Source of the DNA: a virus
Virus record (IMG/VR): IMGVR_UViG_3300024261_000039
Span: 1 to 55,339 of that record
DNA: 55,339 bases
Direction: 5' to 3' (one strand)
Each line of letters starts with the position of its first letter. Position 1 is the first letter of the stretch. The notes below the pieces were generated by a model that worked only from the letters and a program-made list of their open reading frames with translations, did not search any database and was not told the origin of the DNA. The position numbers and the translations under genes were made by a program. Shown here piece after piece: positions 1 through 32,166 of the stretch.

Positions 1-1036
1 GCAGATTTCTGAGTTAACTGCTAGTATTAATACTCAGCAGGGTCTATATGATCAAGGTGTCATTGACCTAGAGACCGCAAACAATAACATCTCTAATTTA
101 GATTCTGAGATCAAGTACCTTGAGGGTAAGTTGTACATTTACTCTGATGACCCCTACTCTACCGACCCTATACAGGATGCTATAAAAGACGGAACTTATT
201 TACCTATCGAAGATATAAACGATATGGGTGAGTACGTCGGCAGTGACCCGAAGTTTTTAAGCAATGATTTAAGTACGGTCTATAACGTAGAGGGTTTTAA
301 CCCAAGTGGTCTGAACTCAGACGGGAAATCTCAAGAGGATTTAGATGCCGTATCGGTTGCTAAGAAGTTAGCAACCCAAAACGATGAGTTATCGGCTGAA
401 CTAACTAATGTGAAAACTGGGAATTATTACGGTAGTGCTGGTTTTAACATACTTGGGTACGATATTAGGGGGTATGATAGGGATCACCTAGACACAGCTG
501 GTAACTACGATCCAGAGGCTAGAACTGATGTAGATGAACTGGTGTCTTCCGATAAGTTAGGAGAGATTGCCCCAATAACCAAAGGTCTCCCAGCGATCAA
601 CACAGGTGAGAATGAGTCCACAGGCGATGGGTTCTTCTATAACCGAGGAACTGGAGTTCACAATGATCAGTTCTGGGTTGGTGGTTCGCACATTGCAAGT
701 GATGTAAACACCCCAGATTACAACCCATCAGTCTCTGGTTTTAATTTTAACGAGGATGCGCCTGAGATGATTGCCAACACTACCTCTCCACGGTACAACG
801 CTGACCCATACGCCACGCTTGGCACGAACACAGATGCTTTCAAAGTTGATAAAATAAGTAGATACCAGCCTACTAAAACAGCGACTACTCCAACGGCAAC
901 GAGTAACTTTTCAGGCACAACATTTAATGCTGGTAATAGTGCTGGTCGTTATAACATTGACGCAACAAAAGCCGCAACTGCTGGAGTAAAAGCTGAACAA
1001 CGAAACGGACAGTTTGACTTTGACGAAGCTATCTAG
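1..1036 (+). CDS. C-terminal part of repeat-rich virion protein (cut by window edge)
   Basis: The frame is open from base 2 to the TAG at 1034-1036, giving 344 residues with no start in the window. It begins with a coiled-coil-like stretch (Q/E/N/L rich). Two modules follow that also occur in the gene at the right end. One is DPYSTDPIQDAI...GTYLP.EDI...GEY.GSDP (about 150-265), matching 50758-50873. The other is GFNPSGLNSDGKSQEDL (about 293-345), matching 55212-55262. It is therefore very probably the C-terminus of the protein starting at 50579, with the circle closed across the window ends. The C-terminal half is Gly/Asn/Thr rich without a recognisable enzyme fold. The position just before internal virion genes suggests a structural role (inference). 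Confidence 0.75.
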   Translation, partial: QISELTASINTQQGLYDQGVIDLETANNNISNLDSEIKYLEGKLYIYSDDPYSTDPIQDAIKDGTYLPIEDINDMGEYVGSDPKFLSNDLSTVYNVEGFNPSGLNSDGKSQEDLDAVSVAKKLATQNDELSAELTNVKTGNYYGSAGFNILGYDIRGYDRDHLDTAGNYDPEARTDVDELVSSDKLGEIAPITKGLPAINTGENESTGDGFFYNRGTGVHNDQFWVGGSHIASDVNTPDYNPSVSGFNFNEDAPEMIANTTSPRYNADPYATLGTNTDAFKVDKISRYQPTKTATTPTATSNFSGTTFNAGNSAGRYNIDATKAATAGVKAEQRNGQFDFDEAI

Positions 1037-6700: not shown

Positions 6701-9700
6701 GAATATAATAACAACCCTAATAGTCTTCCTGAGCATATACAGAAGTTTGTTAAAGACCTGATCGCTCAAGTACGTCAGGCACTTATGGGCATGGGAGTTG
6801 AGTTGAAAAACTTATCCCCTGCTGACTTAAACGCCATGGCTATCGCGGCTATCAAGACACAAGGTGTTGAGACACAAGGCGATGGGGTTCTGGGTAGCAA
6901 CGAGTACCAAGGTAATGACCCGAAAGAGCGGGAAGAGTGGTTGGCATCTGAGGCTAAAGGCTTAGATATGTCTACACCTGCGAGAATGGCACGGGCTATC
7001 AAGATGGGGTACGACATTACCAAGCGTTGGTATCACGGTACTCCTGTTGTGTTTAACACCACTGATCCTAACAATCCCATTGGTATACATACGAAACACA
7101 CTACCGACCTAGCGGGTACTAAGTACACCGCTACTTATACTGAGGCTAGTCACCCCACCAATCCTGCGGGGCTAGAGACCTACGATCAGAATGGGTTAAC
7201 ATTCGCCTCCCCTGACCCAAGGCTTGCTCAAATCTTTGCCAAAGAGGATAGGGAAAACCCAAACATAATTCCTCTGTTCGTTAAGGCAGAGAAAACTTTT
7301 GATGGTAGGGATAAAGCCCAGAGAGAGGAACTATTCGCCCAACTGGTACTCGATCTACATGACACTGACTCTATCCAGTTTGCAAACTTTAAACGTGCTG
7401 GCAGATCAAATGAGCATCGTGGTTTGGGTGATCTTAGTGACAAGCACAACTGGTGGGGTGATGGTAGCCACAATGAGAAACTACAGGAAATCCTTGACGA
7501 TACTAACCACGAAAAGTATGCGTACCTTGTAGGTCGTATAGAGGGCTACCTTAAAAAGCAGATCGCAGGTATCCAAAACGGAGACTTTGTTCAGTTAGAG
7601 CAAGTATCTACCGTGGAGGCACTGAAGGAATTGGGGTATGACTCTCTGTATGTGTCTGAGGAACCAAACGTCAATATAGACCAACACGAATACACCACAG
7701 AGTACAAGAGTTTTGATACTAAAAACGAGGCAGACACATTCCTAGAAGAGCAACTGAAGGTATGGGAAGTCACCAAAGATAACCTAGTAGCTATAGCGGA
7801 TAGCTACAATTATATGTACCCCCACACATCTACTCAAAGTAGGATGGATGAGGCTCTTAGTGAGGCAGAGGAACTTAAACCAATACGTTTAGATAGCGGT
7901 GGGGAGTTTGAAGTCTCTTACCGTAAGAGATTGGAGGCGGAGCGTTCTGACCCACAATCCTCCCGCAACATTGCTGTCTTTGACCCGTCACAACTACGCT
8001 CACCTCATGCGGCTTTTGATACCGAGCGAGCGCAGAGTAATGACTTACTAGCAAGTCAAGCACCTATATCCACCTCAGAGGAATACCGCATGGAGCATAC
8101 CTCTTCAGCTAGGGGGGAGGGCAGATCAGCGGATGACCTGAGTAATGTATACCCTGATGATTTGTATACGCACGGGGTGCAGTATTACGGAACTGGGGAT
8201 GTAGGGGATCAAAATGCCATAGATATTTTGGCAGACTTGAAGGATAACCCTAATGGTATCGTGACAATCTACAGGGCTGTACCTCCTGACGTAGATGAAA
8301 TCAACCACGGGGATTGGGTAACTATAACTGAGAGTTATGCCCAAGAACATGGGGAGCGGCACATGGAACGAGAAGGATTCCATGTCATTAGCGAAGAGGT
8401 CAGAGCAAAAGACATCTTCACTGATGGGGATTCCTTACATGAGTGGGGATATCACCCCGCAACATTTGCCCCTATGGAGTCTGTGAAAGGTGATACAGAG
8501 TCAACGTCAGAGAAGAGTCAAGATGACTTCTTATTCTCTATCGCGCAGACTAACGACCCAGACGCTAATTCCGCAATGGGGAAGATGGGGCCAACCAATA
8601 CTCCAAAGAGTCCTAAAGACAGGTTAGAGAAGACTGCTAAGAACGTCAGAGGTTTCTTTACACGGCAGAATCTTGCTGATCAATACGACTCATTCAGACG
8701 TATAGGTGACAAGAAGACAAGTTGGATGTTGGCGCGGATGAGTAACCTTGGCTCTAACATTGTCGAGGGTGCTATCAAGATCGGGTCTCCTATCTTCCAC
8801 GAAGACGGCAGTGGTGGGATGACCTACAAAGCAGGGTCTAGAAGTCTGACTGACATACTCGCTCCACTACAGGGAGAGATAGATTACTTCTTAGCTTTCC
8901 GTGCTGGACACCGTGCTGAAGATTTTCTTAGGTCGGCAGAGGTTGGGAATGTTCAGGTTAATGACCTGACGTACACTATGAAGTTGGCGAAGAAGCGCAG
9001 AACCGCAATACGAAATGCTATCAAGAACCGAGTTAACCTGACACGGGCAGAGCGTAAATCCCTTATCGCAGAGGAAAAAGAAATAAACGCTCACCTCAAA
9101 GTTAAAAAAGCGGAACTCAAAGTAGCGAGGGAAAAAGCTAAATCAAAAGAGAAGTTATTCACCCCTGCTGAAGTACAGGCACTCAAGAATCTACCTGACA
9201 CATTGGAAGGTGACATAGGCGGTCGGTCAAGACGCGAGGTCTATGAAGAAGTAGCTAAAGAATTCGATGCCATGCATGAGGACTTTGTCCAACTTGGCGT
9301 TGACACAGGGTTGTTCAGTGAGCAACAGGCTCAAGAGTGGAGAGATGGTGGGGTGTACATCCCATTCCACAGGTTGAACGATGATGACGAGCAGACCAGT
9401 ATGCACTCACCGTCTGGGTTAACGAAGTTAACTGAGCAAGATGGGACACATACACTTAAAGGGTCTGAGAAAAATCTCGATGATCTGCTGACCAACGTGC
9501 TTATGAACTGGGCGCACATTACAGATGCGGCACTGCACAATCAAGCCGCAACATCTGTTACCCGCGATCTACATCAAGACGGTGGTATCGCCAAGGCTGA
9601 GATATTCCAAGGCAACAAGACACAATACGAAGAGGCTCAGAAAGACGAGAATAGATACGTGTACTGGGTACGGATGGGGGGTGAAAAGGTCTTAATTGAA

Positions 9701-12196
9701 CTGACTCCAAATCCAGATGACGATACTCAAGACAGTCTAGAAAAGGCTATGTTTGAAGTGGAAATGTTACACCAATCTCTAACAGGAATGGCCCATCTGG
9801 GGTACGCTGATCTCCTCACAAGCGTTGGTGGGGCGGCTAAACAATTACTCTCTAAGGGTGTCACCCTCAACCCAGCATTCAAAATACGAAATGTTATTAG
9901 GGATACCTTGACTGCGGTGGCTGTGGCTCCCATGAATCTCAACATCTTCAAGAATGCTTGGGCTGGGTACATGATTGCGAGAGATGCTGATAGCGAAACC
10001 AGAAAAGAAATGCAGTTTGGTGGAGGGGCTTTCTCCCACGGGTTCACCCGTGGCTCAGATGTGGAGGCTACAAAAGCCCTGATTGCGCGAGGTGTACCAC
10101 AAGAGAATATTCTGGACTCCCCGCAAAAAGTATTCGATAGGTTTAAGCAAGGTGCTGTTAACTTATATGAATGGTATGAGGAAGTGGGGTACAACTTAGA
10201 GAATGCCAACAGAGCCGCACAGTTTAAACAGTCGAAAGATAGGGGTGCTAATGCCTTAGAAAGAAACTTTGAAGCAAGAGATCATTTAGATTTTGGATCG
10301 CACGGTGCTAGTAAATTATTACGAGGCTTGACGCAAACGACAGCATTTTTGAACGCTAGGATACAAGGTCTCGACAAGTTAGCCAGAGCCTCTAGAGATA
10401 AGACTACAATCGAAGGCCGTCAGGTTCTTGACACTCAGCAGAAACAATTTTTTGCAATGGCCTCCGCGTATGTTGGCGTGTCCCTAGCCATGTGGTTCAT
10501 GATGAAAGATGACGAGGAGTACCAAAAACTCACGACTCATGAGAGAGCCACTTACCACGTTTTACGAGTTGGAGACTCTATGGTGTACATACCAAGAGCC
10601 TTTGAACTGGGGGCGGTCGCGGAGAGTGTTGAGCGGTTAACCGAGCAGGTATTCAAAGCACTAGAAGGTGAGGGGTTTGACGCTAAGTTTGTGGGTGAGC
10701 GGTTCTTACACCACCTAACCAGCACATTCAATTTTAATTTACCAACCGCCCTTGTGCCAGTGGTAGAAGTCGGGATTAACAAGAACTTCTTCACGGGTGG
10801 GGTGGTGGATAATACATCAGGGTTACGCGAAGACAGGACTAAGAGTACAACATCTAACTTAGCTAAGGCGGCTAGTTGGTTGTTCTCTCCAACGGGGGCT
10901 TTAGGACTTCCTCAAATGACGCCAATACAAGCAGACCACTTTATCCGTGGTTACACTGCTTGGTTTGGTACTACTGTAGCTGGGGTGGTGGACGCGGCAG
11001 TCAACCCAATGATGGAAGGTGCAGAGCCTGAGCCTTTTGATATACTCGACACTCCTGTTCTTAAAGATTTCATTAAAGAGATTGACGGGAAGTCTAGTAA
11101 CTTCTTTGTTGAGGAGTTCTACAAGCGTAGAGAACCTGCTAGGGAAATTGAAGGATCGCTACGGACAGTCCCAGAAGGTGACACTGAGCGTACAGAGGAG
11201 TTGCGCAAACTCGCAGAAGAGAAGGGGGTTGAGTTGTTCTCTGATGTAGGCAGGTCTATGGGTGAGATCAGAAAGGCTCTGAAAGAAAACAGAGCAGACA
11301 GGACTATCTCAGGAGAAGAAAGAGAGCGGGTACGGAAGGAATTGATTAACGAACGGAATCAAATAGCCAGAGAAATCTTTGAGGAAATTAAAGCGGTAGG
11401 TGAGGAAGACGAGGGGGAGGAAGAGAGTGAGAGCAGTGACTCATCTCTTCTTAACCTCATAGGTATAGGTGACGCCCACGCTGATGAAACGAAGGCCACG
11501 GGGGGTAGTGGTAAGTACATTGACCTGTCTCCAGAACCACTAACCCAAAAAGAACTACATGGTAAGAAAGGTAAAGGTCACGTTTTCTATGGGGCAGACG
11601 CTGTGGCTAAGGTTGAAGAGTTTGAAGGTGAGTTGCCACTAGCGGCCAGACGAGTTGTCGAACTTGAGGGTTTCGTAGATGTTCCTTATAAAGACCAGAA
11701 GGGTGTGGTGACCGCAGGTGTGGGGCAGACGGGAGACTTCATCCATCAGTCTTTTATGGACTCCTTTGAAGACCACGTTGACAGAGCGGAAGACAAAATT
11801 CCAAAGCTTAGAAAACTACCCGAAGCGTTACAAGCTGAACTTATCCAAGCTGAGTATCGGGGTGATCTTGGTCAGAGTCCTACGTTTGTGAAGTTGTTCA
11901 ACAACGGACAGTATAAACAGGCGGCCAAGGAATTCTTAGCCAACGATGAATATAAAGGGTACGTGGACGAGAGAGATAGTGGTGGTAAGACTAGTGGGAT
12001 CATCGCTAGGATGGAGGCCGTAAGCAAAGCTGTTAGTGACTACGCTGATAATAGTGGTAGTACCTATATCGTTAAGAAAGGAGATACCTTATTTAAAGTG
12101 GCTAAGAAATACAACCTATCAGTCCCTGAGTTGAAGAAGATGAACAACATCAAAGACGTATCTAAAATCAGGGTTGGTAAAAAGTTGAAAGTTTAA
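3725..12196 (+). CDS. Giant polyvalent virion protein: metallopeptidase, two ART-like domains, muramidase, LysM
   Basis: The 2823-residue protein is probably ejected with the DNA. The N-terminus carries two copies of DFD.MLSDIDAML (residues ~12-54), then a hydrophobic glycine-rich segment (~170-260) and long coiled coils. An HEMLH zinc-peptidase motif lies at 921-925. A first ADP-ribosyltransferase-like domain starts at WYHGT (1102-1106), followed by the strand FASPDPRLAQIFA. A second ART-like module contains IYRAVP (~1515) and later GDW and EWGY. A region like the large-polyvalent-protein domain LPD38 has NPAFKIRNVIRD at 2049. The C-terminus is a GH24-type muramidase with catalytic Glu 2648 and the pattern E-GF-PY-D-G-T-G-G. 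A LysM domain ends it (2781-2823). The start follows TTGGAGTTTAT. Cell-wall drilling is well supported; the effector functions are inferred from motifs. Confidence 0.85.
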   Translation: MESKFGNQQEVDFDAMLSDIDAMLGETSEPSTVEASGGTVDFDTMLSDIDAMLAEPTTATSIEPRTEDRTWVGDMIDDKSSVYNQFNDAISNDFTKQITMGANAGFEGMLRTADTLFSDGVDGEYINRLKQNSRDVEDSLSEEQKTANRKEFFTDNPDGSWSVNSDAFLDFDKVTGVMAQGVGSLIPTMMGGGAIRGAGAIQVGGKSINKGINFLAGKVGATKTLTSRPKLREFLKKAGSKGLGFGASSTSMVVGGVSGDIQDHVRSMPIEILSKAPIYLEKRDELLDQGIPLAKAEIQAREEVALELGHWGMAKSAPLAMLLGTYAGRYIEDAFTSKVTGGLLKKSLIGLVVESGTEAGEGAQEQLVKNIQTQKVDPSVKTWQGVGESSVAEGLGGFGVAGGMSVAGGAVRKLGMKGADLRQREELLSQQLNQDGSTRVQDHLDEQLRQPQEQEQQSEEQVIFTEEDMAELQRLEAIVLEEERAELALSRHRESKRRQQEILNRSVSNLGGEVVSSEIDSAYQQVDTQNQEQVEAAYAQQERQGAGSPDSLEDLNTGATLATTLSDRAVNRFNSGIQQAEEHAIAEDEKSERLLSAIAKRDAILSKHPDFHGETLVFLDEIQESVQGEAVVKKIAEREITALNNAVDSLEALPKMTEQQGRLYEDAVELLDMGGMGVDIANTLTQRIQRTLPTTETVVEETEQVTEQVAETPHVGKVTRRFEGESSDGIHPPTVYTGAIDGIDVEIYQDELSGVWGYEDPSTGNLIDLSENEKYNYPKEAIKKLTTIVGDPTVDVDTLRKADVKIPSSKSKGFEVDEDPNDLDDLSFSTGEGQVSGETTETISSLLSSTYRKAKALLKNKEIVVVQSVADLPQAMQERGRANASLDVTKRVEGLYDPQTKTTFIVADQVSKETINKVFLHEMLHKALAENPKLKAKLEGNIGGLKKVFEQVESGEFSGANKKIYEAAMSRVDKANTSPEQRFEEFLAYIVTEYNNNPNSLPEHIQKFVKDLIAQVRQALMGMGVELKNLSPADLNAMAIAAIKTQGVETQGDGVLGSNEYQGNDPKEREEWLASEAKGLDMSTPARMARAIKMGYDITKRWYHGTPVVFNTTDPNNPIGIHTKHTTDLAGTKYTATYTEASHPTNPAGLETYDQNGLTFASPDPRLAQIFAKEDRENPNIIPLFVKAEKTFDGRDKAQREELFAQLVLDLHDTDSIQFANFKRAGRSNEHRGLGDLSDKHNWWGDGSHNEKLQEILDDTNHEKYAYLVGRIEGYLKKQIAGIQNGDFVQLEQVSTVEALKELGYDSLYVSEEPNVNIDQHEYTTEYKSFDTKNEADTFLEEQLKVWEVTKDNLVAIADSYNYMYPHTSTQSRMDEALSEAEELKPIRLDSGGEFEVSYRKRLEAERSDPQSSRNIAVFDPSQLRSPHAAFDTERAQSNDLLASQAPISTSEEYRMEHTSSARGEGRSADDLSNVYPDDLYTHGVQYYGTGDVGDQNAIDILADLKDNPNGIVTIYRAVPPDVDEINHGDWVTITESYAQEHGERHMEREGFHVISEEVRAKDIFTDGDSLHEWGYHPATFAPMESVKGDTESTSEKSQDDFLFSIAQTNDPDANSAMGKMGPTNTPKSPKDRLEKTAKNVRGFFTRQNLADQYDSFRRIGDKKTSWMLARMSNLGSNIVEGAIKIGSPIFHEDGSGGMTYKAGSRSLTDILAPLQGEIDYFLAFRAGHRAEDFLRSAEVGNVQVNDLTYTMKLAKKRRTAIRNAIKNRVNLTRAERKSLIAEEKEINAHLKVKKAELKVAREKAKSKEKLFTPAEVQALKNLPDTLEGDIGGRSRREVYEEVAKEFDAMHEDFVQLGVDTGLFSEQQAQEWRDGGVYIPFHRLNDDDEQTSMHSPSGLTKLTEQDGTHTLKGSEKNLDDLLTNVLMNWAHITDAALHNQAATSVTRDLHQDGGIAKAEIFQGNKTQYEEAQKDENRYVYWVRMGGEKVLIELTPNPDDDTQDSLEKAMFEVEMLHQSLTGMAHLGYADLLTSVGGAAKQLLSKGVTLNPAFKIRNVIRDTLTAVAVAPMNLNIFKNAWAGYMIARDADSETRKEMQFGGGAFSHGFTRGSDVEATKALIARGVPQENILDSPQKVFDRFKQGAVNLYEWYEEVGYNLENANRAAQFKQSKDRGANALERNFEARDHLDFGSHGASKLLRGLTQTTAFLNARIQGLDKLARASRDKTTIEGRQVLDTQQKQFFAMASAYVGVSLAMWFMMKDDEEYQKLTTHERATYHVLRVGDSMVYIPRAFELGAVAESVERLTEQVFKALEGEGFDAKFVGERFLHHLTSTFNFNLPTALVPVVEVGINKNFFTGGVVDNTSGLREDRTKSTTSNLAKAASWLFSPTGALGLPQMTPIQADHFIRGYTAWFGTTVAGVVDAAVNPMMEGAEPEPFDILDTPVLKDFIKEIDGKSSNFFVEEFYKRREPAREIEGSLRTVPEGDTERTEELRKLAEEKGVELFSDVGRSMGEIRKALKENRADRTISGEERERVRKELINERNQIAREIFEEIKAVGEEDEGEEESESSDSSLLNLIGIGDAHADETKATGGSGKYIDLSPEPLTQKELHGKKGKGHVFYGADAVAKVEEFEGELPLAARRVVELEGFVDVPYKDQKGVVTAGVGQTGDFIHQSFMDSFEDHVDRAEDKIPKLRKLPEALQAELIQAEYRGDLGQSPTFVKLFNNGQYKQAAKEFLANDEYKGYVDERDSGGKTSGIIARMEAVSKAVSDYADNSGSTYIVKKGDTLFKVAKKYNLSVPELKKMNNIKDVSKIRVGKKLKV

Positions 12197-12417: not shown

Positions 12418-13611
12418 CTAGGTATACTCTCCATTCGACAACATTCGGACAGCCTCCAATCGCTCCATCATCTTACCACCATTATCCCCCGCCTCTGTAG
12501 GAATAAACTTGCTGTACGTCTTTGCTGTAAATGCCCAATTACTATGACCCATCTGTTGAGATACCCACATAGGATGCTCTCCCGCACTTAGCATTTGGGA
12601 GCAGTAAGTATGTCGCATCTGGTAAGGTCTTCTATAACGAACCCCCGCCTTCTTCAAGATGGTCACCCACCGTCTATACAAATCATTTGAATTCTTCCAA
12701 CGAGTCGGTGCTGTCTTAGTCGCATCCCACCCAGTTGAGCCTATCGGTTCTTGGAAAACTTCCTCTCCCTTTAAATAGGTTAATGCCTTCTGAGACTTCA
12801 AGACTGCGAGAGCAGGGGGCAGTAGTTCAACTGTCCGTGTACCTGCCGATGTCTTCGTGTCCTGTAAGTCTTCAGAGTGGTGGGTCAGAGAATGACAAAC
12901 GTGGACAGTACCCGTGACCAAGTCAACATCACGCCACGAAAGCGCAAACAACTCCGATGGCCTCAAGCCTGTCCAGAACCCAAATTCAATCAAGGCTTTA
13001 ATCTGTCCAGTTGCTGTGTTAACTATGGCGTTGATCTCTGCAATGGAGAATGGGTCGATACTTTCCTTGGTAACTTTCTTTTCAAAGAAACTACGGCCTA
13101 ACTTTCTCCCGTATATCGGGTTGCTAGGAATCACATCGTCATCCACGGCCTCATTCAAAGTCTGCCTCAACACTGTGAGCATGGAGTTTGCTCTGGATCG
13201 GGTTGGGTTAAACGAGCGAATGCACTTCTTGATGTCTGACCACGTTAACTCATGTATCTGAATCTTACCCAACGTGGGTGACAACTCATTGTTGACGATA
13301 CGTGTGTAGTTGTAGACCGTCACGGGCGCGAGGTCTGTCCTCTCCAGAAATCTAGACAGATAGAAATCTAGGACGGAAGTCTTAGTCTCTGCTATGGCGC
13401 GTTTGGAATTAGGAAAGAAGTCTGCATACGCAAACGTCCCTCGCTCAATTGCATCTAACACACTCGCTCTTCTGAGTACTGCTTTCTTGAACCCCGCCTT
13501 GGTTGGTGGGATTGCGAGTCGTTCACGGCAACGCTGACCGTTAAACGTGAACGATATTTCTACTGACGATTCGGACGCCTTACGACATCCTTTGTACTTT
13601 GGCTCACCCAT
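12418..13611 (-). CDS. int: Tyrosine integrase
   Basis: The 397-residue protein is a site-specific recombinase of the lambda/P4 integrase family. An N-terminal arm-binding region (1-75) precedes the SAM-like core-binding domain (~78-160) and the catalytic domain (~185-390). Catalytic residues visible are Arg217 (GLRPSE), Arg333 in YQMRHTY (the first His of HxxR is replaced by Tyr, as in some P4-type enzymes), His356 (MGHSN) and nucleophile Tyr366. The ATG at 13611 lies inside the preceding xis-like gene (52-base overlap). It is the last gene of the leftward early operon, so its expression should follow the promoter at 19133-19161. It integrates and, with Xis, excises the prophage. Confidence 0.92.
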   Translation of the reverse strand: MGEPKYKGCRKASESSVEISFTFNGQRCRERLAIPPTKAGFKKAVLRRASVLDAIERGTFAYADFFPNSKRAIAETKTSVLDFYLSRFLERTDLAPVTVYNYTRIVNNELSPTLGKIQIHELTWSDIKKCIRSFNPTRSRANSMLTVLRQTLNEAVDDDVIPSNPIYGRKLGRSFFEKKVTKESIDPFSIAEINAIVNTATGQIKALIEFGFWTGLRPSELFALSWRDVDLVTGTVHVCHSLTHHSEDLQDTKTSAGTRTVELLPPALAVLKSQKALTYLKGEEVFQEPIGSTGWDATKTAPTRWKNSNDLYRRWVTILKKAGVRYRRPYQMRHTYCSQMLSAGEHPMWVSQQMGHSNWAFTAKTYSKFIPTEAGDNGGKMMERLEAVRMLSNGEYT

Positions 13612-18782: not shown

Positions 18783-19026
18783 CGGGTGCGTTCTCTCTCT
18801 TTAAGTAAAAGATAGGGTCTTCAGCGAGGTAATCGCTAGTCACCTCAATAGCTATCGTCCTCATGTGTTCGTTTGGCATGGCCTCTAAGGCCGCTGACCA
18901 TCTGACTAAAGCTGACCCAAAACCTTTACGAGTGTTGGCCGCTTTGATTAGGGCGTCCATGGCCTTAAGGACTGGAGTCCAAGCTGACTCAGGGTGAATT
19001 CCAATTGGTAAAATGTCTGCACTCAT
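18775..19026 (-). CDS. Hypothetical early protein
   Basis: An 83-residue helical protein without recognised motifs (WTPVLKAMDALIKAANTRKGFGSALVRWSAAL). It overlaps the Cas4-like gene by 8 bases, and its start overlaps the stop of the tiny membrane ORF as ATGA. It is the first full-size gene of the leftward early operon. Function unknown. Confidence 0.55.
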   Translation of the reverse strand: MSADILPIGIHPESAWTPVLKAMDALIKAANTRKGFGSALVRWSAALEAMPNEHMRTIAIEVTSDYLAEDPIFYLKRENAPDV

Positions 19027-19103
19027 GATGATATCCCCACAAATATTCCAATAATAAATAAGTAAATGGCAAAGATTGCCACTGATTCAAGTACGTCTCG
19101 CAT
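19023..19103 (-). CDS. Tiny membrane protein (26 aa), first gene of leftward operon
   Basis: Twenty-six codons encode an acidic start followed by one hydrophobic helix (AIFAIYLFIIGIFVGISS). A strong GGGGAGGT ribosome site stands four bases before the ATG, and the stop overlaps the next start as ATGA. The ORF begins 23 bases after the predicted transcription start. These signals make it credible despite its size. It may act only as a leader that couples translation, or as a membrane peptide. Confidence 0.55.
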   Translation of the reverse strand: MRDVLESVAIFAIYLFIIGIFVGISS

Positions 19104-19132: not shown

Positions 19133-19161
19133 ATAATAGCAAATGCTTATGGGTTGCACAA
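19133..19161 (-). promoter_or_regulatory. Leftward early promoter with operator
   Basis: On the minus strand: TTGTGC (19161-19156), 17 bases, TATTAT (19138-19133). The spacer ends in CATAAGCATTTGC, identical to the spacer end of the rightward promoter at 20509-20537. It contains the operator-like 10-mer AGCAAATGCT (plus strand 19138-19147). It should drive the operon 19103-12418. Confidence 0.65.
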
Positions 19162-19254: not shown

Positions 19255-19491
19255 ATGCTAACGAAGCTGGATGTACTGAATGCGCTTGAGGCGAAAGGAT
19301 ACAAAGGAGTAAAGCTGTATAGAATGGGAGATGGAGACAAAGCGATTTGGGTATTCCAGTACCCGAAGATTCACGTAATGTACGCGAGGGTGCTTACTCC
19401 TTATATAAGTGATCTGACTTTAGAAGTCTGGTTAAACGAGTTTGATATGATGTTGGAAGAAACTTCAATGATGAAGATCGGTGCGCTTTGA
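19255..19491 (+). CDS. Small hypothetical protein near the switch
   Basis: A 78-residue protein (mixed alpha/beta: LDVLNALEAKGYKGVKLYRMG, then AIWVFQYPKIHVMYARVL) with a GGGAG ribosome site eight bases before the ATG. An earlier ATG at 19250 is out of frame and stops at once. It is transcribed toward the repressor gene on the opposite strand. No family recognised. Confidence 0.6.
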   Translation: MLTKLDVLNALEAKGYKGVKLYRMGDGDKAIWVFQYPKIHVMYARVLTPYISDLTLEVWLNEFDMMLEETSMMKIGAL

Positions 19492-19637
19492 AGGGGTGTA
19501 CATTATGCCTCGCCAAGTTTAGTGAAGACGAGGGTTTACTGGAAGGTTATATTGGTATGTTACCCGTGTGCTTTTGTCCAACGTGCCTGTCTGGCTTGTT
19601 GGACATGGCGGATCAGATGAGAGAGGGTGAAGAATAA
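19488..19637 (+). CDS. Small zinc-ribbon-like protein (49 aa)
   Basis: A TTG start overlaps the TGA of the preceding gene (TTTGA), and the frame encodes CTLC near the start and CFCPTC in the middle, a plausible four-cysteine zinc site. The tail is acidic (DMADQMREGEE). Coupled translation is inferred from the overlap; no independent ribosome site is strong. It could be a non-coding 3' region, but the paired CxxC motifs favour a gene. Confidence 0.45.
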   Translation: MKGCTLCLAKFSEDEGLLEGYIGMLPVCFCPTCLSGLLDMADQMREGEE

Positions 19638-19684
19638 CATGGCGAATGTTGGGGGTTTTTCCCCTAACATTTACAAGGTATGTT

Positions 19685-19710
19685 TAAACGTACGTTTAAA
19701 CGTACGTTTA
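19685..19710. repeat. 26-bp perfect palindrome at the repressor stop codon
   Basis: Two GTTTAAACGTAC units and a partial third make a tandem array whose core 19685-19710 reads the same on both strands. It includes the TAA of the CI-like gene (19710-19708). Just upstream, 19652-19676 holds a GGGG/CCCC hairpin flanked by ATGTT/AACAT. Possible roles are terminator, protein-binding site or cruciform. Confidence 0.6.
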
Positions 19711-20331
19711 CTTCCCCTTAACGAACTGCCGCTGATAGAACATGACTGTTCCAAGAATGTCTTGATCAGTCTTCTGGACTAAAGGGAACTGGATGTTTGA
19801 AGGTTGGAAATACTGAACTCCCCCTTCAGTGACGAGGCGTCTGACCGTGGCTGTTGGGGCATCGGCCTCACGATACACAACAATGTCTCCATTCTCTGGT
19901 CGATGTCGTGGAGATACAGTGATGTACCCACCAACGGGAAGTTCGGGAGACATCACCTCACTTAGAATCTCCAAAGCAAAACAGGTCTTAGCGCAATCCC
20001 ATGCCGCAGGTATCAAGGTGAGTGGCCTGTCCATTCCAAGCGGGGCGTCTTCCCACGAAACCACAGGTATATAATGTTGTGATGCGACAGGGGGAGCATC
20101 TCTGATTGCAGGGTGGTCTTCGGGTAGCGTGGATAACCAACCTTCTGGCAAATTTAACCGCGCCTCAAACTTACTGGCTGATCTCTCGCCCATGTTTCTC
20201 AGTCCATTGACCAACTGGTAGACGTACCCTGTCGATACCCCCATGGCCTTGGCTATCTGTCCTTGACTACCGTACTTGTTAACAACTTCTATGAAGTTCA
20301 ACTTACGAATTTCTGCTACATCTACTGACAT
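19708..20331 (-). CDS. CI-like repressor with degenerate S24 peptidase domain
   Basis: The 207-residue protein has an N-terminal helix-turn-helix (about 20-45: GSQGQIAKAMGVSTGYVYQLV) and a C-terminal LexA/CI-type S24 fold (about 118-200: LEILSEVMSPELPVGGYITVS, GDIVVYR, QYFQPSN). The Ser that precedes Met in active proteins (lambda GNSM) is Val126, and the catalytic Lys (lambda FKKL) is Arg164. Self-cleavage is therefore not expected, although the dimerisation fold should remain. I chose the ATG at 20331 over an upstream TTG at 20346. The gene lies opposite the Cro-like gene and likely maintains lysogeny and represses its own promoter. Confidence 0.85.
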   Translation of the reverse strand: MSVDVAEIRKLNFIEVVNKYGSQGQIAKAMGVSTGYVYQLVNGLRNMGERSASKFEARLNLPEGWLSTLPEDHPAIRDAPPVASQHYIPVVSWEDAPLGMDRPLTLIPAAWDCAKTCFALEILSEVMSPELPVGGYITVSPRHRPENGDIVVYREADAPTATVRRLVTEGGVQYFQPSNIQFPLVQKTDQDILGTVMFYQRQFVKGK

Positions 20332-20363: not shown

Positions 20364-20392
20364 ATTATATATGAAGTTACGGGGTGTGTCAT
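20364..20392 (-). promoter_or_regulatory. Repressor (CI) promoter
   Basis: On the minus strand: ATGACA (20392-20387), 17 bases, TATAAT (20369-20364), start near 20357, 26 bases before the ATG. The -35 lies inside the left arm of the inverted repeat 20382-20426, which suggests autoregulation. Confidence 0.65.
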
Positions 20393-20426
20393 ATAACACA
20401 AGTACAGTCGGGCATATGCCACACCC
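20382..20426. promoter_or_regulatory. Candidate operator dyad in the switch region
   Basis: The arms GGGTGTGTCATAT (20382-20394) and the complement of GGGTGTGGCATAT (20414-20426) match at 12 of 13 bases around a 19-base centre. The 10-bp palindrome GGCATATGCC (20411-20420) overlaps the right arm. A weaker TAGCTTATGCTA lies at 20436-20447. The left arm covers the -35 of the CI promoter. Confidence 0.5.
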
Positions 20427-20508
20427 TGCTATCTATAGCTTATGCTAAGTTATACCCCCCTCAACAACAGCAGTCAACCCTGATTGTGAGATAAATGTGA
20501 CAAATAAC

Positions 20509-20537
20509 TTGTGAGAGTCATAAGCATTTGCTATGAT
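20509..20537 (+). promoter_or_regulatory. Rightward early promoter with operator
   Basis: TTGTGA (20509-20514), 17 bases, TATGAT (20532-20537). The spacer contains CATAAGCATTTGC as in the leftward promoter, with operator AGCATTTGCT at 20523-20532. The predicted start (20543-20545) coincides with the ATG of the Cro-like gene, so its mRNA would be leaderless. Confidence 0.7.
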
Positions 20538-20543
20538 TAGAGC

Positions 20544-20765
20544 ATGGAATATAAAAAATACTATGCGACCCTCGGCAGGGAGCAGAAGAAACAACTAGCC
20601 GACAAGTTACACACATCCCCTGAATACCTAGCCCAATTGAATAGTGGTATGAGGTACGCAGGTTTGAAAATTGTGCGGGCCATCGAACCCGCCACAGACG
20701 GGGTCGTGGAAATGCATGAACTACCTCTCAAGCCACTACCTTCTTCAATGGTCGTGTCGTTCTAA
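20544..20765 (+). CDS. Cro-like small DNA-binding protein
   Basis: A 73-residue protein with a YdaS/Cro-like helix-turn-helix: GREQKKQLADKLHTSPEYLAQLNSGMRYAGLKIVRAIEPAT. It is divergent from the CI-like gene, as in lambdoid switches. The ATG stands at the predicted transcription start with no ribosome site upstream, and no later start would keep the fold, so leaderless translation is likely. The C-terminal 20 residues are non-conserved in appearance. A strong terminator follows. It probably binds the shared operators and blocks repressor synthesis. Confidence 0.75.
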   Translation: MEYKKYYATLGREQKKQLADKLHTSPEYLAQLNSGMRYAGLKIVRAIEPATDGVVEMHELPLKPLPSSMVVSF

Positions 20766-20845: not shown

Positions 20846-23215
20846 ATGTCTGAGAATAACGTAGCAGTATTGAACAATCTAGCAAGCCTTGCCCACCAAC
20901 TCGATGATGCTCCTGAGAAAGAGGGTGACTCATTCTTAGTTCATTGTGTTGCCCATGAAGACACGCACCGCAGTCTTCTGCTCAGTGAGGGGGCAACGGG
21001 CAAGACGATTGTGTATTGCAGGGCAGGGTGTACTCAAACTAAGGTAATCGCAGAACTTAGAGACCGTGGATTGTGGAGAGCGTCACCTCGTCCCGTGGTG
21101 GTGTCGGTTCTATACCATTATATAGACGAGTATGGACGAGAGTTCATGACTAAACGCAAGACTCCCAAGACTACGGTGAACGGTAAGAATAACTACGCCA
21201 TTGGCGTAGTGGATGATGGTAAGTTTAAACCCAGTGGTAAGCCAGAAGGTACACCCCCTCTCTATGGGTTGGTCAGTCTTCTTGAGGGGGGAAGGGAGTC
21301 TGAATTTGTTTGTGTCGTGGAAGGTGAGAAGGATGTTGACACGATTGTTGACCGTGGTGGCGTTGCAGTTTGCAACTATGACGGGGCGGGCAAATGGAGC
21401 GATGAGTATACTAATGTCCTGAGAGGCCATCGGGTTCTGATCATCCCTGACAACGACAGAGCAGGTCGAGACCACGCTAACATGGTTGGTAAGAAGTTAG
21501 ATGAGGCGGGTATTGATGTCAAAGTCTGGTATATCGAGGATATCGAAGAGAAGGGTGATGTAACAGATTGGTTTGAGAATCATAGTGGTACTTGGGAAAA
21601 GCTGAGAGAGGCTTATAGACTCTGTAGTTCTTTTGATGCATCGGACGATGGGTCACCGTGGACAGATCGGATGTTGGTCACGGAGCGAGGTGGGTTTGAG
21701 CGTGTGTTGTATAACGTAAAGCTGATGCTTGAGAATTCTCCTAAGACCAAGGGTGTCCTGAAGTATAACGAATTCCAACAGCGGTCTGAGGTAGCGAACT
21801 CTGTGCCATGGAGACGGGCAGATCATGACTTAGCGATCACAGACTACGATACGTTAGAGATGACGTCCTATATGAATGAAGGTGGCCTGATGGTCAGCAA
21901 GGCCATGGTGGATCAGGGTGCTGAAGTCATTTCTAAAAAAAGAGATAACCGCTATGACCCCTTAAAAGACTATTTATCGGTCTTAAATTGGGACGGTGTG
22001 GGTCGTGTCGATAGGTGGCTCAAGGAAATTGGGGCAACGTCTGACGAGGAATATTGCAAGCGTGTCGGTGCGGCATGGTTAATTGCAGGCGTGGCCCGTG
22101 GATTAAACAGTGATGGTGTGAAGGCCGATCAGATGTTAATTCTTGAGGGCGATCAAGGCATCAGGAAATCAACGTGTGCCAAGGCTCTGTGTCCCGTAGA
22201 TGAGTGGTTTACGGACAGCGTTAACACCTTTGAAGACAACGATACGATACTGAAGATGCAGGGCAAATGGATCATCGAGATTCCAGAACTTGCGGCATTT
22301 AGTAAGACTCAAATCAACCAACAGAAAGCATTCCTCAGTCGTACACACGACACAATGCGTCTGGCCTACGCTCGGTTTGATTCGACATTCCCTAGACGCT
22401 GTATTTTTATCGGCTCTCATAACCCTGAAGGTGATGGGGGCTATCTGAATGACTCGTCAGGAAGTCGTAGAGTTCTGCCAGTGAGCATGGGCGGTGACAT
22501 CAACATCGAGTGGTTGGAAAAGAACAGGGATCAGCTATGGGCAGAGGCTTGTGTTCGCTACAAATCAGGAGAGAAATGGTGGTTCGATGCAGACGATGCA
22601 ATCAATCAGCAGGTTCTGGACGAGCAGACTGCGAGGTATAAAGAGCATGAGATCATGGAAGAAGTGAGGCACTTCTTGACACACAGACCTGTGAACATTG
22701 GTGGTGTTATAGAGTGGACGGAACGTGATGAACCTGACTTAGTATTCTTCCCTAAAGTCTTTTGGGAATCTATGTACGGGGAAGATTATGCGACTAAATG
22801 TCCGAAGCATACTAAGGATGGTATGGCTAGGGGGATGCGTATTCGTAAGTGGAAGAAGGGCAAATACTACTGCAAAATCACCAAGACTACGAAGGGTGGG
22901 TGGCGTGAGACTGATGATTCTGAGGGGTTTGAAAATGTAAAAGGTGAGGTTTCCAATAAACCCACAGCAAATGCTAGTGAAAAAGATGGCAAAAACCCTC
23001 ACTCTGCTTTTTCGGAAAATAGGGGTGAGGTCGATTTACCCACAGCAAATGCTAGGGGTGATGGTGGTCGTGGTAGTACACCTCCCCCTAAAGTCGAGGT
23101 GAGGTCGGAGAAAGGTGAGGAAAATGGGGAGGTCGTGGAGTCAGTAATGGCGGGGTCTGTAGAGGTATCTCCCCTTTCTCACCCTACTACTACAAAGAGT
23201 ATATTTGACAGGTAA
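20846..23215 (+). CDS. TOPRIM primase / VapE-type helicase
   Basis: The 789-residue replication protein starts with a CHC2-like zinc site (Cys34, His37, Cys58, Cys62), then a TOPRIM domain with EGEKD (159-163) and PDNDRAG (201-207). A virulence-associated-E (VapE) P-loop domain follows, with Walker A EGDQGIRKST (434-443, Arg in place of the usual second Gly), EIPELAAFSK and FIGSHN plus SGSRRVLPV. The C-terminal ~90 residues are low-complexity and contain PTANA twice. Between ATGAC and GTCAT, which could pair, lies GGAGG, 8 bases before the ATG. It probably primes and unwinds for the polymerase gene immediately downstream. Confidence 0.85.
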   Translation: MSENNVAVLNNLASLAHQLDDAPEKEGDSFLVHCVAHEDTHRSLLLSEGATGKTIVYCRAGCTQTKVIAELRDRGLWRASPRPVVVSVLYHYIDEYGREFMTKRKTPKTTVNGKNNYAIGVVDDGKFKPSGKPEGTPPLYGLVSLLEGGRESEFVCVVEGEKDVDTIVDRGGVAVCNYDGAGKWSDEYTNVLRGHRVLIIPDNDRAGRDHANMVGKKLDEAGIDVKVWYIEDIEEKGDVTDWFENHSGTWEKLREAYRLCSSFDASDDGSPWTDRMLVTERGGFERVLYNVKLMLENSPKTKGVLKYNEFQQRSEVANSVPWRRADHDLAITDYDTLEMTSYMNEGGLMVSKAMVDQGAEVISKKRDNRYDPLKDYLSVLNWDGVGRVDRWLKEIGATSDEEYCKRVGAAWLIAGVARGLNSDGVKADQMLILEGDQGIRKSTCAKALCPVDEWFTDSVNTFEDNDTILKMQGKWIIEIPELAAFSKTQINQQKAFLSRTHDTMRLAYARFDSTFPRRCIFIGSHNPEGDGGYLNDSSGSRRVLPVSMGGDINIEWLEKNRDQLWAEACVRYKSGEKWWFDADDAINQQVLDEQTARYKEHEIMEEVRHFLTHRPVNIGGVIEWTERDEPDLVFFPKVFWESMYGEDYATKCPKHTKDGMARGMRIRKWKKGKYYCKITKTTKGGWRETDDSEGFENVKGEVSNKPTANASEKDGKNPHSAFSENRGEVDLPTANARGDGGRGSTPPPKVEVRSEKGEENGEVVESVMAGSVEVSPLSHPTTTKSIFDR

Positions 23216-28237: not shown

Positions 28238-29014
28238 TTATGCGGCCTCAAGTTTGTACAATTCTTCATCTAAGATTCTTGTTTGAATCGCTGTACGTTT
28301 AGCAATCAACTGCGGATTACATTCTCGTGCCGTGCGTGAAGGCTTTATCGCTTCGGTGCAACTCTGTTGCAATCGCCACAATGACCATCCGTTTGAAGCG
28401 TGTTCTTTGTACTTTGGTGCATCCCATTGCTGAATCGCACCCCCAAGTTGTGAGGGTGATAATCCACCTGCTCTGAAGATGTTCCCCAAGACGCTTGTGC
28501 CACGGTCTTGACTCAACTCGACATCCTTGTACGCTTTGATGAACTCCACCTGACGTTCCAGAATCTCAGGTACTCGCTCAAAGATTCCATCAATAATTGA
28601 TCCCATTCTTGAATTCAGATGGGTCGTTTGCTTGGTCGAGATGGCATCGCCCAAGTCACCCGAAAAACAGAGATTTGAGCAAACCGTCACTCGGTTACCA
28701 ATGACCAATGACCTCGGTAAAGTTTGATTAGTGCTTGCCCTTAATCCGATGATCGGTGACCACGATTTATCACCATTAGGGTTCGCTAATTTCAACGCAC
28801 CAAAGAACTGACGGTGCTTTTGAGTTGTCACGAATTCACTTTGAGTTACTGTGATTCCGTGCTTGTCAATTCCTTCCATCACCTGTTCAGCAAAGGTGCT
28901 GAACTCAACAGGGTTGTGAACAGTTCCCATCGCAGATACGGATGGGATATTTTTCAAGCCTTCCAATGTGTGATGGACGTTAGCGGCAGATGGATATAAG
29001 AGTGCTGTTGTCAT
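28238..29014 (-). CDS. DUF932-like protein
   Basis: The 258-residue protein resembles the DUF932 family of phages and plasmids: QFFGALKLAN, then PIIGLRASTNQTLPRSLVIGNRVTVCSNLCFSGD and a helical C-terminal half. The family has no proven biochemical function. It is a single-gene unit, with a promoter plus operator at 29048-29099 and a terminator at 28191-28232. GGAG stands seven bases before the ATG. Confidence 0.65.
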   Translation of the reverse strand: MTTALLYPSAANVHHTLEGLKNIPSVSAMGTVHNPVEFSTFAEQVMEGIDKHGITVTQSEFVTTQKHRQFFGALKLANPNGDKSWSPIIGLRASTNQTLPRSLVIGNRVTVCSNLCFSGDLGDAISTKQTTHLNSRMGSIIDGIFERVPEILERQVEFIKAYKDVELSQDRGTSVLGNIFRAGGLSPSQLGGAIQQWDAPKYKEHASNGWSLWRLQQSCTEAIKPSRTARECNPQLIAKRTAIQTRILDEELYKLEAA

Positions 29015-29047
29015 TTTATTTCTCCAGTTGTGTTGTTTAAAATTTTT

Positions 29048-29099
29048 AGCATTTGCTAAAAGTTAAGTTAATCTTATTCCTATGCGTTAGCTATGTCAA
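29048..29099 (-). promoter_or_regulatory. Promoter-operator unit for DUF932-like gene
   Basis: On the minus strand: TTGACA (29099-29094), 17 bases, TAAGAT (29076-29071). The operator TAGCATTTGCTA lies just after the predicted start (core 29048-29057). The leader TTTTAAACAACACAAC also occurs before the gene starting at 32080. Confidence 0.7.
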
Positions 29100-29586: not shown

Positions 29587-29898
29587 AATGAATGGGAAAC
29601 CACCCATTCCCAACGGACTTTGTGACAGTTCCTTTGCCCACTTGACTGATGCATCGTTACGAGCATCGGTATAGTCCTTCATTCCATGTACCTCAATGGT
29701 TTTCAACAATGCCCCCATGAAACATTGCTGTAATGTTGGATGCTGAAAGGTCAATGATTTACCCATCATTTCACCCACCTCAGTGCTGTCACCCATGTTA
29801 ATTTCTTTTATCAACGCATCCATCGCATTTTTAATGCGTTGTTCTTTGTCAGTTTTTGCTATGTGACGGTTTAATGCTATCGCTAATTCATCAGTCAT
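29584..29898 (-). CDS. Hypothetical helical protein
   Basis: A 104-residue protein, mostly helical, with Met-rich segments (NAMDALIKEINMGDSTEVGEMMGK). The start overlaps the stop of the upstream zinc-ribbon gene as ATGA. It is the second gene of a two-gene unit that ends at the terminator 29560-29586. No family recognised. Confidence 0.5.
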   Translation of the reverse strand: MTDELAIALNRHIAKTDKEQRIKNAMDALIKEINMGDSTEVGEMMGKSLTFQHPTLQQCFMGALLKTIEVHGMKDYTDARNDASVKWAKELSQSPLGMGGFPFI

Positions 29899-30080
29899 CT
29901 GATACCCCCTTCAACTATGTATAAGTGTGTGCTGTGACAGATAGGGCAGAACACGCCCCGTTCCCCATCCCTGTGTTTGATTCGGGGATTTTCTGCATGA
30001 TCTTTGCCCCGATATTTACACCTCAAACATTCAGATATTTCCCCACCCTTGATAATTTCCCACATTTTTTTAGTCTCCAT
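29895..30080 (-). CDS. Small zinc-ribbon protein
   Basis: A 61-residue protein with CLRC and CPIC separated by a charged loop, the layout of a zinc ribbon. The ATG at 30080 follows GGAGAGTAAA; the ATG inside that site would add a MESK prefix. It is the first gene after the promoter-operator repeat 30095-30161. Confidence 0.55.
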   Translation of the reverse strand: METKKMWEIIKGGEISECLRCKYRGKDHAENPRIKHRDGERGVFCPICHSTHLYIVEGGIR

Positions 30081-30094
30081 TTTACTCTCCATTT

Positions 30095-30161
30095 TTGTTA
30101 AAAGTTCCTAGCAATTGCTAAGGCTTAACTAATGCTAAACCTTAGCAAATGATATGTCAAT
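30095..30161 (-). promoter_or_regulatory. Promoter-operator repeat, copy 1 (67 bp)
   Basis: On the minus strand: TTGACA (30160-30155), 17 bases, TAGCAT (30137-30132), then operator TAGCAATTGCTA (30120-30109) right after the predicted start. The whole 67-base block is identical to 30745-30811. Confidence 0.65.
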
Positions 30162-30726
30162 GGCTATTGCTATCAATCATAACTTTTGTTGGTCTTTGCA
30201 CTATGGTCTGTTCTGTTCCATCACGTAGGCCATGCTCTTTGACCTTTGCCCAGAAATTAATCGTGTCACCTTTTTCTGCTGACGCCATGGCACCTGATCC
30301 TTTCCAGATAATAACGTCATCGCCTTGTTTCATAATTTTGACGTAGGTTGTGCCATAATCCGTCTCATAATATGCGGTTCCAAAAACAACACACGTGAAT
30401 TGCTCTCGCCCACCCACAACACCAGTATGTCGTGATAGGGCATTTTGTTCTTTAAATTTGGCCTTGCGTTCAGCCTTTTTAGCAATTATTTTTTCAACTG
30501 CTTTTACTTGATTAGCAGTAAGGCCACCGTATTCCAACCATGCTGAATACATTTTATCGACAAAGTTTTGATCTAAAGTAGTTCCATTTTCATTCAAAAA
30601 ATCCACAATTTCTGGGTGTTCTGAATTGAATTTTTTTGATCTGGTTTTACAAGCATTTTCCATTTTATACCGCTCGATGGCAGGGAAATAATTTGCCGCA
30701 CCCACGTGTTCATCGTTATAAGCCAT
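30157..30726 (-). CDS. Putative OB-fold nucleic-acid-binding protein
   Basis: A 189-residue protein with a helical N-terminal half and a basic helix (KAVEKIIAKKAERKAKFKEQNALSRHTG). The C-terminal beta-rich module TYVKIMKQGDDVIIWKGSG...GDTINFWAKVKEHG looks like an OB fold found at the end of many phage proteins. GGAG stands eight bases before the ATG. A single-gene unit under promoter copy 2. ssDNA or RNA binding is inferred. Confidence 0.5.
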   Translation of the reverse strand: MAYNDEHVGAANYFPAIERYKMENACKTRSKKFNSEHPEIVDFLNENGTTLDQNFVDKMYSAWLEYGGLTANQVKAVEKIIAKKAERKAKFKEQNALSRHTGVVGGREQFTCVVFGTAYYETDYGTTYVKIMKQGDDVIIWKGSGAMASAEKGDTINFWAKVKEHGLRDGTEQTIVQRPTKVMIDSNSH

Positions 30727-30744
30727 AATAATATCTCCACTTAG

Positions 30745-30811
30745 TTGTTAAAAGTTCCTAGCAATTGCTAAGGCTTAACTAATGCTAAACCTTAGCAAAT
30801 GATATGTCAAT
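30745..30811 (-). promoter_or_regulatory. Promoter-operator repeat, copy 2 (67 bp)
   Basis: Perfect copy of 30095-30161: TTGACA (30810-30805), TAGCAT (30787-30782), operator TAGCAATTGCTA (30770-30759). It drives the gene starting at 30726. Confidence 0.65.
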
Positions 30812-30820
30812 AGCTAATAG

Positions 30821-31156: not shown

Positions 31157-32080
31157 TTATGCTATTGCGGCTAATTCTAAAGCTTGTTTTTCAGTCCAGA
31201 AAAAATCTTGATCTTGGGACTTTTCAAGGTTATTTCTATCGCTTTGTTTACCGCCCTTCATACGTAAGAATTTAAGCTTTATAGTATCGGCTGATCTATC
31301 ATCGTGCTTGTCGGCGTCCATAAACTTTGAGCGTATTTGATCGCTTACTTTCCATTCCTTTTTACATTCCTTTGTATTAAGGGCAATAACTACGTGGTGG
31401 CCGTCTTTGATCGCTTTAATGGTTCTATTTCTAACTGTTTCGTTAGCGTTTGAACCACTGAAAACCCTTGTAACATTACTAAGCCCTAATTTTTTGTCTT
31501 TTTCAAAATAGGCTAAACCCTTGGAATATTCGACAAAGGAAATAAAAGAAAACATCTCATAGATACTTTTGAATTGTTTGAATAAATCTTGAGTACCATT
31601 CAAACGAATAATTAATAAATCCTTGTACTTTTGGTGCAAAAAACTTAATTCGTCGGCTATTCTTTGAATAAATGCTTCAAAATGAAATATCATTAAAATT
31701 GTACGTTTTATTTTGGCGTTATCTGCTACCTCCATGCCCAATTGGCCTGACCACGCTAAACAAGTTAAAAAGCACCCGTTTTGTTCTGCCCATGGGCATA
31801 AGGTTTTTTTGCTTACTTTGTTATGCGGTGACAAGAAAAGTACATATTGAATTTTCCCTGTCTCTTTTTTTGTCTTTTCTGTTTTTGCTGATTTACTTAA
31901 CAAAAAATCCATGGGCTTGTTTAAGTAGCCGTAATTGCTTACGCCTTGTGTTTCACTTTTTAGCCACGTTTTAGCGTAGTCCGTCAATTTATTGCTATTT
32001 AATAATGTTTCTAAGGCTAGTGGTTTAAATGTGAAGGGTTTTAATCGCTTAACACCTTGATAATCTTTTTTTAATATCAT
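31157..32080 (-). CDS. Conserved phage protein with Cys cluster, unknown function
   Basis: A 307-residue protein in an AT-rich single-gene unit. It has the ordered motifs LSPHNKV, LCPWAEQNGCFLTCLAWSGQLG (three Cys), RTILMIFHFEAFIQ, IIRLNGTQDL, SFVEYSKGLAYF and SGSNANE. That order matches a widespread uncharacterised phage family; GP88-like is the nearest name I recall, unverified. The ATG at 32080 has GGAGA eight bases upstream. The Cys cluster could hold a metal centre (inference). Promoter-operator 32114-32166 and terminator 31123-31150 bracket it. Confidence 0.6.
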   Translation of the reverse strand: MILKKDYQGVKRLKPFTFKPLALETLLNSNKLTDYAKTWLKSETQGVSNYGYLNKPMDFLLSKSAKTEKTKKETGKIQYVLFLSPHNKVSKKTLCPWAEQNGCFLTCLAWSGQLGMEVADNAKIKRTILMIFHFEAFIQRIADELSFLHQKYKDLLIIRLNGTQDLFKQFKSIYEMFSFISFVEYSKGLAYFEKDKKLGLSNVTRVFSGSNANETVRNRTIKAIKDGHHVVIALNTKECKKEWKVSDQIRSKFMDADKHDDRSADTIKLKFLRMKGGKQSDRNNLEKSQDQDFFWTEKQALELAAIA

Positions 32081-32113
32081 TATTAAAGTCTCCGTTGTGT
32101 TGTTTAAAATCAA

Positions 32114-32166
32114 TTAGCAATTGCTAACTCACCTTTAGATTATCATTTTACTAAGTGATACGTCAA
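32114..32166 (-). promoter_or_regulatory. Promoter-operator unit for the 307-residue gene
   Basis: On the minus strand: TTGACG (32166-32161), 16 bases, GATAAT (32144-32139), then the 14-bp perfect palindrome TTAGCAATTGCTAA (32114-32127) right after the predicted start. Same architecture as 29048-29099 and the 67-bp repeats. Confidence 0.7.

Follow-up and report, generated by a model that had tools for sequence, protein, structure and literature searches.

A CI-like phage repressor that keeps the S24 fold and lacks the self-cleavage elements

The window is a viral record of 55 kb (55,339 nucleotides). It contains a CI-like repressor gene at 19708-20331. The original prediction gave these coordinates correctly and named no strand. 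Translation of the minus strand yields a single open reading frame (ORF) of 207 residues, and the plus strand there is full of stops. The only close relative of the repressor in IMG/VR, L002, is 78% identical over 206 residues. The repressor, its neighbors, and the integrase gene are as follows.

19708..20331, minus strand: CI-like repressor, 207 aa, ATG at 20331 and stop at 19708.
20544..20765, plus strand: Cro-like helix-turn-helix (HTH) protein, 73 aa, first gene of the rightward operon.
20846..23215, plus strand: primase/helicase of the rightward operon.
19255..19491, plus strand: 78-aa protein with no family assigned, a candidate antirepressor, convergent to the repressor gene and 85% identical in L002.
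19488..19637, plus strand: 49-aa protein with two CxxC motifs, sharing an operon with the 78-aa gene.
19023..19103, minus strand: 26-aa hydrophobic peptide, first ORF of the leftward operon, with a similar peptide in L002.
12418..13611, minus strand: tyrosine integrase, indicating a temperate lifestyle.

The integrase gene has a near-complete Pfam match. The window also encodes a family A DNA polymerase, terminase, portal, and major head protein. The head protein (38903-39883) is one of a large group found on uncultivated phage contigs (L093-L172), with 325 relatives in one scan. L173, one of 3 of 37 head-protein-related records with an S24 protein, carries an intact Ser/Lys repressor. Two giant ORFs lie at 3725-12196 (2,823 aa) and 42362-47977 (1,871 aa). 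The rightward operon contains the Cro-like gene, followed by the primase and polymerase, and diverges from the repressor gene. This divergence, with putative operators between the two genes, is a CI-type trait, with the Cro assignment itself being weak; the Cro-like protein gives only weak matches to PDB chains that carry the name antirepressor protein Cro (E value, 0.015). A terminator-like tandem palindromic repeat, TTTAAACGTACG, lies at 19678-19712, where the 3' ends of the repressor gene and the small operon converge.

The repressor contains an HTH region (residues ~5-60), a linker, and an S24-fold C-domain (residues ~86-203). The C-domain matched Pfam Peptidase_S24 (PF00717) with an E value of 1.6e-10 and 41.1 bits against a cutoff of 23.3. 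The protein matched a PHROG transcriptional repressor (8.1e-17), and a PDB sequence search retrieved lambda CI and LexA. By Pfam and model match, it is a member of the S24/LexA-CI fold. It has an N-terminal HTH DNA-binding domain, as identified by PHROG and model HTH matches; the Pfam HTH_3 match was slightly below its cutoff.

The positions associated with self-cleavage were located in alignments.

19954..19956, minus strand: GTG, Val126, at the catalytic Ser position (lambda S149).
19840..19842, minus strand: AGA, Arg164, at the catalytic Lys position (lambda K192).
20041..20046, minus strand: GCC-CCG, Ala96-Pro97, replacing the scissile Ala-Gly.

In an alignment with nine named-phage repressors, V126 lay under Ser and R164 under Lys in 9/9. 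The same 9/9 have the scissile Ala-Gly where the window repressor has Ala96-Pro97, and its loop following the cut site is about 8 residues shorter than theirs. The original prediction had assigned Val126 and Arg164 to the two catalytic positions, with the flanking fold motifs kept. The nine phage repressors and the viral-contig relatives confirm both positions, and the motifs are kept. The third loss, of Ala-Gly to A96-P97, and the shorter loop are additional to that prediction. S24 autoproteolysis involves a catalytic Ser, a catalytic Lys, and an Ala-Gly or Cys-Gly bond; judged from these alignments, the window repressor has none of the three.

The L002 repressor has the same V, R, and A-P. 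An assembly error was considered as the source of the dyad loss and rejected, as this independent, diverged contig has all three changes. In a first sample of 80 viral-contig loci, Ser, Lys, and Ala-Gly were present in 79/79 others, and V/R/A-P occurred only in the window and L002. The pattern used to fetch this sample contained the cleavage site, so a second sample was retrieved with a pattern that avoided both the cleavage region and the catalytic regions, leaving it unselected on these sites. There were 48 distinct C termini in the whole set. Ser, Lys, and Ala-Gly were present in 76/79 others, 2/79 had Ser and Lys with A-S or A-N, and 1/79 (L192) had lost the Ser and the cut site. L192 encodes an unrelated S24 phage repressor at 2001-2648, in which Ala replaces the catalytic Ser, Ala-Lys occupies the cut site, and the Lys is kept. 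It is probably an independent loss of autocleavage. The tree requires two losses, one in the window pair and one in L192; both are on long branches, and a single origin is formally possible. Loss is rare in this sequence neighborhood but probably not unique. L215 and L217 have an intact Ser/Lys pair, but the residues that align with the usual Ala-Gly are Ala-Ser or Ala-Asn. Scanning viral contigs with the primase retrieved the same contig and nothing else. Scans of genome contigs with the repressor and primase gave no relatives.

Strong purifying selection acts on the inactive C-domain. A comparison of the window with L002 gave a dN of 0.12 in the C-domain and 0.53 in the linker, with C-domain synonymous sites saturated. 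An AF2 model built from a 40-sequence alignment had a pLDDT of 87.7. Its C-domain matched the lambda CI C-domain (1f39) with a Z score of 13.9 and a root mean square deviation (RMSD) of 1.4 Å over 93 residues, and it matched lambda CI cleavage-site fragments with Z scores of 15.3 to 15.8. Lambda CI matches overall had Z scores of 13.9 to 15.8 and RMSDs of 1.4 to 2.9 Å. The model C-domain also matched that of phage 186 CI, with Z scores of 9.7 (2fkd) and 9.8 (2fjr). The model N-domain matched SPC32H Rep from the Rep-Ant complex (5d50) with a Z score of 12.9 over 75 residues. A structure-based alignment had been suggested as a check on the residue assignments. In it, model residues 113..206 span 136..236 of the 1f39 chain, and V126 falls on lambda S149 if the alignment is ungapped at that end. 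The S24 fold is retained with its cleavage chemistry lost, which would fit a kept function in dimerization and cooperativity.

RecA-stimulated autocleavage of the window repressor is very unlikely, because the nucleophile, general base, and cut site are lost together and the domain is kept under purifying selection in a diverged relative. This supports the earlier expectation that the phage would not be induced by that route.

The promoters and operator-like sites around the repressor and Cro-like genes are as follows.

20364..20392, minus strand: ATGACA-N17-TATAAT, a putative P_RM-like promoter of the repressor gene that is conserved in L002.
20386..20399: palindrome GTGTCATATAACAC over the -35 element of the repressor promoter, conserved in L002.
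20410-20424: GGGCATATGCCACAC, the inverted partner of GTGTCATATAACAC, conserved in L002.
20435..20448: ATAGCTTATGCTAA, a weak palindrome resembling the operator, between the repressor and cro genes.
20509..20537, plus strand: rightward promoter (P_R-like), TTGTGA-N17-TATGAT, conserved in L002.
20520-20534: putative operator ATAAGCATTTGCTAT, overlapping the rightward promoter.
19133..19161, minus strand: leftward promoter (P_L-like), TTGTGC-N17-TATTAT, read from the sequence.
19136-19150: the same putative operator ATAAGCATTTGCTAT, overlapping the leftward promoter.

ATAAGCATTTGCTAT is placed identically in both early promoters, between the -35 and -10 elements. A palindrome of a second type, GTGTCATATnACAC, lies at the repressor promoter. 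The GTGTCATATAACAC palindrome could act in autoregulation or as a site for Cro. Across the genome GTGTSATATNACAC shows no enrichment, and its weight therefore comes solely from where it lies and from its conservation at the repressor promoter.

The palindrome TTAGCAWWTGCTAA occurs at 11 sites with ≤2 mismatches, compared to 0.55 expected from shuffles. Six of the 11 are two copies of one duplicated promoter cassette, and the independent count is therefore lower. All 11 are intergenic when compared with the ORF lists. They lie at 19136, 20435, 20521, 29046, and 32114 and in triple arrays at 30108-30155 and 30758-30805. The sites beyond the early promoters are as follows.

29046..29059: TTAGCATTTGCTAA, a perfect palindrome in front of the leftward gene 28238-29014.
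30108..30155: a set of three operator-like palindromes, spaced 17 bp from one another, inside and behind TTGACA-N17-TAGCAT in front of the leftward gene 29895-30092.
30758..30805: the triple-operator promoter again, as a second copy in front of the leftward gene 30157-30726.
32114..32127: TTAGCAATTGCTAA, a perfect palindrome in front of the leftward gene 31157-32113.

The duplicated cassette is about 60 bp (30100-30165 and 30750-30815). Each copy contains TTGACA-N17-TAGCAT and three palindromes before a leftward gene. A translation-start leader, AAAATGGAGAGTRARATG, is repeated at several leftward gene starts (minus strand, 26565, 27594, 28137, 29494, and 30078), with 7 matches at ≤3 mismatches compared to 0.28 expected. 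We assign the TTAGCAWWTGCTAA sites to the repressor because they are on both early promoters; they could instead belong to the Cro-like protein.

The closest structure by model and profile is lambda CI. Lambda CI likewise has an HTH and an S24-fold C-domain, a divergent Cro gene, and operators over the early promoters, but it retains Ser149/Lys192 and Ala-Gly and undergoes cleavage with RecA, whereas the window repressor has V126/R164/A96-P97. Vibrio phage VP882 CI is among the best named phage matches (28.6% identity), but it keeps GDSM, TFKQL, and Ala-Gly and is autoproteolytic (PMC10432266). Coliphage 186 CI is an HTH repressor with a C-domain of the same fold and is induced by the antirepressor Tum without self-cleavage (PMC7708051). 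At 12 to 13% identity, it is not a close relative. Tum is LexA controlled, whereas LexA-type boxes in the window (CTGTN8ACAG, ≤1 mismatch, a consensus that may not be that of the host) were not above chance, with 18 found and 26.6 expected.

Other non-cleaved phage repressors relieved by antirepressors include those of the Gifsy phages (PMC3121763) and N15 (PMC10432266) and SPC32H Rep. The HTH of SPC32H Rep is a strong match to the window model. The Gifsy repressors are short (~136 aa) and, unlike the window repressor, do not contain the CI C-domain (PMC3121763). In a survey of telN/repA-type phage elements, 210 of 271 CI proteins were putatively nonautoproteolytic (PMC10432266). RogA, the Caulobacter gene transfer agent repressor, has an HTH and an S24 domain without key catalytic residues (PMC9632790). 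By this published description it resembles the window repressor, but it is a cellular regulator. Noncutting phage repressors and a catalytically dead S24 repressor are thus already known, and the window repressor is a clear new example. Its sequence suggests that it is not self-cleaving, as in the antirepressor-controlled type of 186, Gifsy, and N15.

We infer a master-repressor role for this protein and the existence of an independent inducer. The gene is probably that of the lysogeny master repressor in a temperate phage, with the S24 fold used for contacts only and a separate factor relieving repression. The repressor HTH would bind palindromic operators that cover the early promoters in both directions, leftward and rightward, and probably additional early promoters. 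The C-domain would be retained solely for dimer or higher-order contacts. Self-cleavage would have been lost in this lineage through the changes of Ser to Val, Lys to Arg, and Ala-Gly to Ala-Pro. A separate inducing factor would be needed because of this loss. It could be an antirepressor, Cro competition, or a trans-acting protease, inactivating or outcompeting the intact repressor, as in 186, Gifsy, and N15.

The candidate inducers conserved in L002 are the 78-aa ORF, the 49-aa ORF, the 26-aa peptide, and Cro itself. A PDB search with the 78-aa ORF gave no match, and a Pfam scan of the early genes found no antirepressor or protease domain among the proteins scanned. No antirepressor under LexA-box control emerged from these scans and the box search. 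An antirepressor, Cro competition, and a small early protein would appear alike at the sequence level.

Inactivation by proteolysis in trans, by a host or phage protease and with neither an antirepressor nor self-cleavage, is unlikely. ClpX was reported to be essential for CI repressor inactivation in Staphylococcus aureus (PMC10584840), and separate phage peptidases are noted for repressors that have no peptidase domain of their own (PMC10432266), but no ImmA-like or other dedicated protease gene was recognized among the proteins scanned in the window. It is quite unlikely that the phage is uncoupled from SOS, with the convergent 78-aa and 49-aa operon being a new antirepressor type that answers a non-SOS signal. 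It is highly unlikely that the protein is an accessory regulator of a virulent phage or of a decaying lysogeny module. The loss of the catalytic residues would fit, as would the recognizable S24 protein in only 3/37 related-capsid records, many of them fragments. However, the repressor gene is under purifying selection, the P_RM/P_R/P_L layout is conserved, and the integrase match is near complete. Self-cleavage by way of a displaced Ser/Lys pair or at another cut site is extremely improbable: Ser128 sits two residues past Val126 and the C-domain has further lysines (K115 and K187), but relatives with the normal Ser have S, T, E, or I at position 128, S124 is Thr in L002, and the cut site is Ala-Pro.

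For a probable lysogeny master repressor, the points of interest are the loss of all three cleavage elements with the domain still selected and the distributed operator layout. The whole S24 fold is kept and selected without autocleavage, and the survey contained a second, apparently separate case. Together these indicate that the C-domain is useful without its peptidase. An S24 annotation alone is a poor ground for predicting SOS induction. The small conserved immunity region is a place to seek the alternative inducer.
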